IMG/VR virus record: IMGVR_UViG_3300025646_000099
Coordinates: 1 to 41,775 of that record
Reading direction: 5' to 3' (one strand)
Source of the DNA: a virus
Length of the DNA stretch: 41,775 bases
Shown here: piece by piece, positions 39,637 to 41,610 of the stretch
How positions within the stretch are numbered: the stretch's first letter is position 1
Layout of the letters: every line of letters begins with the position of its first letter
Notes under the pieces: model-generated
Seen by the model: only the letters and a program-made list of their open reading frames with translations
Told to the model about the DNA's origin: nothing
The model's database searches: none
Translations under genes and position numbers: made by a program

Positions 39637-39866
39637 TGTATATCCGGAAATTTTTTATTATCGTGATACTTAGAGGTCGAATTGTCACCTCTGTAGGTTA
39701 GGGTAGTTATCGATTTTTATAAACCCCCCCCCGTTACGCCACGTATAAGAACCCCCCATAAATCGCAGGGACTGCTATAACGAATAACGAATAAACTGCG
39801 ATTTCACGAATAAAGAATAACGAATAAGATAGGGGGAGAAACTATAAAGAACTCCCCCCAATCTTA
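39637..39866. other. Gene-free structured region
   Basis: 230 bases without a credible gene. It holds a 6-bp hairpin (AGAGGT 39672-39677 with ACCTCT 39687-39692), a run of nine C (39724-39732), a run of six C (39752-39757), a 9-bp inverted repeat (AAATCGCAG 39760-39768 with CTGCGATTT 39796-39804), five CGAATAA-type heptamers and a large G/C hairpin near 39824-39867. Candidate regulatory region, replication origin or recombination site. Confidence 0.6.
39781..39827. repeat. Iteron-like CGAATAA heptamers
   Basis: CGAATAA occurs at 39781-39787 and 39788-39794, then after 12 bases at 39807-39813, AGAATAA at 39814-39820 and CGAATAA at 39821-39827. The first pair lies inside the loop of the 9-bp inverted repeat. 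Confidence 0.65.
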
Positions 39867-40815: not shown

Positions 40816-41124
40816 TCAGAAGTATGTGCCAGGAGCATAACCTTCGATTGCACCCCGATAAATCATAGAGTGATCAATCTGCCCCTTAGAAACTCTCTTA
40901 CCGTCGATCTGGAAAGTATAACGCAACTGACCTTTTACAGTCTTGCTAACTTTACAGGTCAGACACACTTCACCATTGCGATTACCTTGAGCATCATACT
41001 TTGCGAAGTAATGGTTACACACACCAGGCAGTTTATAATCAACAACTCCATTGCGTTGCTGATAGTTTTCCAGTGCAAGTTCCTCAGTGAGAGTGATGTT
41101 CTGGAAGAGGTCTTGGAGTTGCAT
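40816..41124 (-). CDS. Small hypothetical protein, 102 aa
   Basis: No family recognised. The N-terminus MQLQDLFQNITLTEELALEN is helical. The centre, VDYKLPGVCNHYFAKYDAQG, then NGEVCLTCKVSKTVKGQLRY, contains a C-x2-C-like LTCKVSK and a basic TVKGQLRYTFQIDGKRVSKG stretch, ending IYRGAIEGYAPGTYF. Strand-rich, could be a small DNA- or protein-binding fold. The leader is ACCACACACCAATG, with no ribosome site. The upstream 312-base gap contains the structured region at 41260-41430. Confidence 0.65.
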   Translation of the reverse strand: MQLQDLFQNITLTEELALENYQQRNGVVDYKLPGVCNHYFAKYDAQGNRNGEVCLTCKVSKTVKGQLRYTFQIDGKRVSKGQIDHSMIYRGAIEGYAPGTYF

Positions 41125-41436
41125 TGGTGTGTGGTGATCTCGACTCTTCTAATATACATGATTTTGAACCCTGTGCTCATTTATTGTGACACTAATACTT
41201 TTGGCACAAGGTGTATAAATAAAGCAGTTATTTGTTCCGTATGGTGTCAATAACTATCAGGTGAGTTTCTTATATTGAACCCTCCTATATGGATCAAGGG
41301 TCAATCACAAACTCCCACAAAGGTAGTTAACACTTAGGAAAGACAAGTAGCAGACAACTAAAGACTTAAGGGTTGCCAGAGAGTTATAAAAACTCACCCT
41401 ATTACTGGTTTTTTTAGTGTCTGCTACTATTAGGTT
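41125..41436. other. Intergenic region with interlocking inverted repeats
   Basis: 312 bases without a credible gene. Element A: GAGTTT (41263-41268) with AAACTC (41309-41314), enclosing ACCCT (41279-41283) with AGGGT (41297-41301). Element B: GTAGCAGACA (41347-41356), one bulge and CTAAA, with TTTAG and TGTCTGCTAC (41413-41427), enclosing AGGGT (41369-41373) with ACCCT (41396-41400) and GAGTT with AACTC. A and B can also pair with each other: GGTGAGTTT (41260-41268) with AAACTCACC (41390-41398). Candidate regulatory RNA on either strand. Confidence 0.55.
41214..41221 (+). promoter_or_regulatory. Forward-strand late promoter box TATAAATA
   Basis: A perfect TATAAATA on the plus strand, opposite to all genes. 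No plus-strand gene follows, but the structured elements at 41260-41430 begin about 40 bases downstream, so it may drive an antisense or non-coding transcript. Confidence 0.4.
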
Positions 41437-41610
41437 TTACCAACGATCGGGTGTACTTAAGTCCTCAACGTAAGCATCACACTTCTCTGCAGGTTCCAAT
41501 TTGAAGAGTTTCTCCCAGTCAATTTGATGTGGGTCGAAGTCAGGAAACGCCGAAATGTCAAGGGTGATGCGATAACGAACCTTCTGTGCCTGTGAATACG
41601 CAACTGACAT
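41437..41610 (-). CDS. Small hypothetical protein, 57 aa
   Basis: The sequence starts MSVAYSQAQKVRYRITLDIS and continues AFPDFDPHQIDWEKLFKLEP, then AEKCDAYVEDLSTPDRW. CGGAGAG stands about 5 bases before the ATG, a good ribosome site and the best in this small-gene cluster. A sigma70-type promoter (41637-41665) and a late box (41678-41684) lie upstream. A strand-then-helix design (KVRYRITLDIS, then DPHQIDWEKLF) suggests a small soluble regulator or binding protein. Function unknown. Confidence 0.75.
   Translation of the reverse strand: MSVAYSQAQKVRYRITLDISAFPDFDPHQIDWEKLFKLEPAEKCDAYVEDLSTPDRW

Follow-up and report, generated by a model that had tools for sequence, protein, structure and literature searches.

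To our knowledge, T4-like cyanophages have so far yielded few known noncoding RNAs. One of those described, CfrI of cyanophage S-PM2, is reported to be antisense to psbA and a homing-endonuclease gene (PMC2984593). The wcaG RNA, the PhotoRC-II RNA and the glutamine riboswitch are structured RNAs described in these phages (PMC9602691, PMC9964418). The plastic regions of T4-like phages are also reported to harbour PeSLs, mobile units made of an early promoter and a stem-loop (PMC4503421). The late motif of cyanophages is given as NATAAATA, with the core ATAAATA (PMC2984593).

We analysed a viral contig of 41,775 nt (IMG/VR record IMGVR_UViG_3300025646_000099), whose full length we call the window. 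Judged by its sequence, it is a fragment of a T4-like cyanophage; in the records with distant DNA matches to the contig end, 128 out of 132 are Synechococcus phages. The genes in our list for the window are on the minus strand. An initial annotation had proposed a conformational switch or antisense RNA between two small genes near this end. We consider it likely that the plus strand of this region (41214-41421) is instead a stand-alone late RNA gene, belonging to a structured family and probably acting in trans. The features of the region are as follows.

40816-41124, 102-aa gene; the RNA region lies between it and the 57-aa gene
41142-41212, minus strand, early-promoter and stem-loop cassette of the 102-aa gene, PeSL-like, adjoining the RNA and outside it
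41214-41221, plus strand, putative T4-type late promoter TATAAATA of the RNA, with the sole plus-strand ATAAATA
41227-41421, plus strand, conserved structured noncoding RNA of about 195 nt (match of covariance model R2 with 231 bits, as a training sequence)
41243-41334, plus strand, domain A, a long interrupted hairpin (41243-41258/41322-41334; 41263-41268/41309-41314; apex 41275-41304)
41275-41304, plus strand, apex hairpin TTGAACCCTCC-loop-GGATCAAGGGTCAA, common to the wider family
41369-41408, plus strand, domain B, an H-type pseudoknot with a hairpin inside, with compensatory changes among six sequences
41370-41373/41396-41399, plus strand, helix P1 of domain B, nearly invariant
41381-41385/41391-41395, plus strand, embedded hairpin of domain B, with compensatory change in four of five pairs
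41376-41379/41405-41408, plus strand, pseudoknot helix P2 of domain B, with a GC to CG change in phage S-SRM01
41409-41421, plus strand, U-tract and conserved 3' end TTTTTTTAGTGTC, a possible terminator by its sequence
41437-41610, minus strand, 57-aa gene on which the RNA converges (phrog_12516, unknown function; PHROG E 2.2e-20)

Promoter, extent and setting of the RNA

The late core ATAAATA occurs 16 times in the window, 15 times on the minus strand and once on the plus strand (41215-41221). Thirteen of the minus-strand copies are outside genes and two inside; 12 of these 13 precede the start of a listed gene by 13-68 nt, the remaining one (782-788) having no listed gene downstream. The chance of one or fewer of 16 copies on one strand is 0.00026 under equal strands, although gene orientation by itself already favours the minus strand. 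The initial annotation had correctly placed a forward box at 41214-41221, which turns out to be more telling than it had supposed. The box stands at the 5' edge of all seven loci of the window type (the window, L183, L184, L190, L191, L192 and Synechococcus phage S-SRM01). An antisense ATAAATA was found in none of the 132 regions covering the first 350 nt downstream of the 57-aa genes of our loci set. The motif and its strand bias suggest that transcription from TATAAATA would take place in the late phase.

Similarity among the relatives begins at TATAAATA and fades after TTTTTTTAGTGTC. The six distinct sequences all begin at this box, reach the conserved 3' end after 208-211 nt, and are convergent to genes of one and the same 57-aa family. 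We placed the RNA start at about 41227 from the promoter, and its end, which would fall in the U-tract at 41415-41421, from the loss of similarity behind this tract. Similar ends are present in L183, L184, L190, L191, S-SRM01 and the wider family, and a strict terminator scan gave no hit at the RNA 3' end or on the minus strand there. The longest plus-strand ORF (ATG/GTG/TTG) starting inside 41227-41421 has 20 aa, and we recognised no plus-strand gene behind the RNA within the window.

The 57-aa gene has a sigma-70-like promoter and a late motif; neither its product nor the 102-aa protein matches Pfam. On the other side of the RNA, the cassette at 41142-41212 has multiple diverged copies in S-SKS1 and related contigs; such similar stretches, several per record, also occur in S-T4, L017, L020, L035 and others. 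Two further elements were observed. The minus strand of the window at 39637-39740 holds a conserved noncoding element, TATAAAAA..CTAACCTACAGAGGTGACAATTCGA, perhaps a leader element, which is common to Bellamy, S-SM2, S-SCSM1, SynMITS9220M01 and five IMG/VR loci (L013, L016, L042, L124, L213). A short repeated element resembling GTTACTCACCTTGAAAGTGTCCCTATAGTGTAAGG, perhaps a promoter class, stands directly before start codons, upstream of small genes, in many of the loci L004-L142.

Fold, relatives and covariation

Both strands of 41225-41436 fold better than chance: the plus strand reaches -61.8 kcal/mol (z -4.04) and the minus strand -57.5 kcal/mol (z -3.31), values that none of 200 shuffles equalled in either case. 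On the plus strand the same is true of the 3' element, B (z -4.10, 0/200 shuffles as good), and the short form of the 5' element, A, is matched by 4 of 200 shuffles (z -2.37).

A pattern of domain B retrieved five IMG/VR loci (L183, L184, L190, L191 and L192), all with A, B and TATAAATA; four of these contigs are distinct, L192 being a near-copy of L191. We built the covariance model R2 from the window, L183, L184, L190 and L191. It scores these five training sequences at 218-236 bits and L192 at 220 bits. R2 also matches the isolate S-SRM01 (MW015081), which was not in the training set, at 86425-86620 on the minus strand with 72.1 bits (E 9.6e-20); this is its sole match among 40 records (E ≤ 0.1). 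The S-SRM01 copy has TATAAATA directly upstream and lies within an unannotated stretch (85982-86730, the record having no feature between 85981 and 86731). The homologue of the 57-aa gene (match at 85826-85957 in the gene 85784-85981) is on the opposite strand and convergent, as in the window. In the accessible sections of the S-SRM01 genome paper, the RNAs named are tRNAs and a possible psbA intron only (PMC8557907).

By covariance model, seven loci including S-SRM01 contain both domains. This type seems rare: among 80 loci of the 57-aa gene, R2 matched only L006, and there only in part (the apex); the 12 remaining isolate records of the 40-record scan gave no match, nor did S-CRM01 or RN05-S. 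The domain-B pattern matched genome contigs three times, and R2 finds nothing in any of them. Blastn of A and B in phages gave nothing useful; in 36 records its matches were all short and weak (E 0.0015 at best), and inspection showed the top one to be unrelated. An exact 21-mer scan and an outer-stem pattern scan revealed no true relatives, the five matches of the latter looking like chance.

We assessed covariation on an alignment of six sequences (A7), fitted to R2 except for the pseudoknot helix; since the other helices were in the model and P2 was not, the alignment leans towards the former. The sample of six is small, and five of the sequences are closely similar, S-SRM01 being the exception. 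In this alignment the structure of A and B with the pseudoknot is paired in 96.7% of cells. Both-side changes are found in 13 of 41 pairs, against a shuffled mean of 3.3; none of 500 shuffles reaches this count, and slid versions of the structure have at most one. The covariation is 0.298 versus 0.128. Read on the plus strand, the counted pairs include G.U in eight cells and A.C in one. The proposed plus-strand RNA behind TATAAATA is thus backed by relatives, by compensatory changes and by a match in an isolate.

Domain A accounts for both-side changes in 8 of 28 counted pairs in the six sequences. Before S-SRM01 was added, domain A alone had four such pairs in five sequences, a count matched by 22 of 500 shuffles, and its covariation score was reached by none of 500. 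The initial annotation had drawn this element as a hairpin at 41261-41318; the hairpin holds, and its extent does not, as nested helices reach 41235-41340. The second element had been drawn at 41346-41428 with a 15-bp outer stem. That stem exists and is not conserved: 71.0% of its cells are paired against 71.6% in shuffles, and 9 of its 20 pairs depart solely through unpaired cells. The conserved core is 41369-41408 and includes the pseudoknot, which had been missed. Its helix P2 is CCAG/CTGG in five sequences and CCAC/GTGG in S-SRM01, and so still pairs through a GC to CG change while being outside the model.

A wider family and the 57-aa gene

In the late-promoter RNA of L084 the domain A apex is present and differs by a compensatory change. 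The pairwise alignment of L084 with the window (local z 4.0, equal to the best of 200 shuffles) led to an apex motif, and the corresponding pattern retrieved ten loci, six of which have the late motif and were taken as the family. The other four (L180, L182, L185 and L188) are without this motif and were set aside; R2 finds nothing in them, nor in L163 and L193. R2 detects the apex in L199, L198, L187, L189 and L186, none of which is in the model, with E 4e-6 to 4e-3. In the 17 sequences of a hand-split table, the apex pairs CCC/GGG, CTC/GAG, CTT/AAG, TTC/GAA and TTA/TAA are all present.

A scan with GTCTCCGNCGCAATAAAA, the motif of another domain (domain 2), gave 27 loci. In 26 of them T/CATAAATA precedes the motif by 115-250 nt on its own strand; L193 is the sole exception. 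The pseudoknot helix P2 of domain 2 covaries (at one pair UA in 7 of 19 sequences and GC in 12) and is unpaired in 3 of 57 cells; P1 does not vary, which is partly due to the presence of its 3' arm in the search pattern. Some domain-2 RNAs carry the apex of A (17-row hand-split table). Domain 2 (GAGGGAGTT..GTCTCCGNCGCAATAAAA) was not found in the window, where the best match of model R3 (16.1 bits, E 0.93) is elsewhere, and it is likewise absent from S-SRM01. With the window type, two wider sub-families have the late promoter and the 57-aa neighbour in common, and one of them also the apex of A. The window and S-SRM01, without domain 2, thus represent a sub-family whose links to the rest are the apex, the promoter and the neighbourhood, and these links are weaker than the membership of the window type itself.

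We also observed a second 5' domain of late-promoter RNAs, the L130 type (..CGGTTCACCCGATGAG..AGAATTCCCTGCT.., with a covarying closing stem), in L158-L168 (without L163), L078, L202, L207, L209 and L213, mostly right after the 57-aa gene. One search gave 11 loci, ten of which belong to this type; L163 was rejected as chance. The model of this type, R1, finds nothing in the window, and pairwise alignments of the window with the type are mostly not above shuffles (the best is with L165, global z 3.06).

A homologue of the 57-aa gene occurs in 36 of the 40 family loci, at most about 2.5 kb from the RNA within the fetched stretch; several of these loci are near-copies, so these are not 36 independent cases. 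Conversely, models R1-R3 found an RNA in only 3 of 80 loci taken by their 57-aa gene (L006, L021, L078). The 57-aa gene is therefore common without the RNA, whereas the RNA is seldom away from the gene. The RNA is convergent to the gene in all seven window-type loci, 15 to about 815 nt from its stop, and in the wider sub-families it is codirectional with the gene, downstream or upstream. With linkage as the sole basis, the 57-aa protein is a candidate partner of the RNA.

Other strong hairpins, 17 of them distinct, were seen within 200 nt behind the 57-aa gene in 32 of 132 regions (including L013, L014, L024, L027, L033, L037, L043, L092, L099, L108 and L128), with stems that differ and stay paired. 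Many of their loops hold a late-promoter-like TAAATA, and in nine of ten checked an ORF starts at the stem base; its product is either a protein of 137-140 aa showing what looks like an HNH-type Cys/His pattern or a form of 55-60 aa. They resemble T4 genes in which early transcripts hide the start site and late transcripts begin inside the hairpin.

Alternative readings and comparison with known systems

Building on the computed family, structure, promoter-like start, U-rich 3' end and linkage to the 57-aa gene, we propose that the late promoter TATAAATA would drive a noncoding RNA of about 195 nt. This RNA would fold into a long interrupted hairpin (A), followed by a pseudoknot enclosing a hairpin (B), and would end at the U-tract. 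Since its structure persists although neighbours and orientation differ, it probably works in trans, by binding a protein or an RNA of the phage or its host. In a base-pairing screen of leader, linker and whole RNA against the start regions of 27 window genes, nothing rose above shuffles.

The initial annotation had favoured two mutually exclusive folds, in which 9-bp and 6-bp long-range pairings join A and B. The words are indeed where it had put them (GGTGAGTTT at 41260-41268 with AAACTCACC at 41390-41398; AACCCT at 41278-41283 with AGGGTT at 41369-41374), and they are pairable in 100% of cells of the five closest sequences, because these columns hardly vary. The perfect 9-base complement is unremarkable, as dinucleotide shuffling of 41125-41436 produces a 9-mer complement 25% of the time. 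Compensatory changes are seen in the local hairpins and not in these long-range pairs: in six sequences the latter show no both-side change, one is broken in L184, and in S-SRM01 four of the eight nine-mer pairs that are free of gaps are broken, as is one of the six six-mer pairs. Forcing the 9-bp pairing costs 22.4 (plus) or 14.1 (minus) kcal/mol, with pair probability 0, and we did not find a regulated gene preceded by two conserved folds that exclude each other. A conformational switch is hence highly improbable. It is just as hard to credit that the inverted repeats act as DNA, in a site of recombination, replication or packaging; the region adjoins a repeated promoter and stem-loop cassette, and PeSLs are reported to mediate shuffling in T4-like phages (PMC4503421), but the G.U-tolerant pairing, the pseudoknot and the promoter at the edge point to RNA.

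Two other readings place the function at the 57-aa gene. The hairpins could merely end or protect its minus-strand early mRNA, as 3' stem-loops or a terminator: B sits just past the gene's stop codon, folding is likewise seen on the minus strand (z -3.31), and other relatives have other strong hairpins at that place. This is nevertheless very unlikely, since the G.U pairs favour the plus strand, the conserved unit begins at TATAAATA, and the would-be terminator is the outer stem, which is not conserved, with no minus-strand terminator found. Alternatively, the late plus-strand RNA might pair with the 57-aa mRNA, or collide with its transcription, and shut this early gene off late. Such antisense action is possible, in line with the convergence of the RNA and the gene in all window-type loci, but it is not the best reading and we think it unlikely: within the bounds given here the RNA stops short of the coding region, the wider sub-families carry it on the same strand as the gene, and pure antisense would need no compensatory changes in two folded domains. 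A fold conserved amid changing flanks argues against pure antisense. More speculatively, and rather doubtfully, there may be a so far undescribed superfamily of late RNAs in cyanophages, in which one apex hairpin is combined with interchangeable pseudoknot domains and the 57-aa gene nearly always lies alongside; RNA and 57-aa protein may then form a unit that, at the late stage, captures a machine of the host, be it polymerase, ribosome or RNase.

Rfam 15 gave no match at or above the gathering threshold in the window, or in sets of 11 and 14 related loci, and permissive scans gave matches only far below the thresholds of the families. Our literature search, with most subscription papers outside its range, returned no earlier description of this RNA. 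Within these bounds, and as defined by sequence comparison, this is a structured RNA family in viruses of cyanobacteria with neither an Rfam 15 match nor an earlier description found. The covariance model is now at hand for finding further members, and the presence of a conserved pseudoknot RNA in the isolated phage S-SRM01 opens the family to direct test.

GOLLD and ROOL are large structured noncoding RNAs linked to phages; they are much larger than the window RNA, which has no Rfam match. The neighbour of the RNA at 41142-41212 resembles a PeSL cassette, whereas A and B stand behind a late promoter and have a covarying multi-helix fold with a pseudoknot. CfrI (about 225 nt) likewise comes from a cyanomyovirus, is a noncoding RNA of comparable length and converges on phage genes, but R2 and R3 have no match in S-PM2. 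The wcaG RNA, PhotoRC-II RNA and glutamine riboswitch differ in being described as cis-regulatory or riboswitch, and no Rfam model matches the window or the family loci scanned. Together with CfrI they are antisense or cis-regulatory, whereas the window RNA would be a late-promoter RNA gene, which suggests that late promoters in T4-like cyanophages can serve RNA genes.
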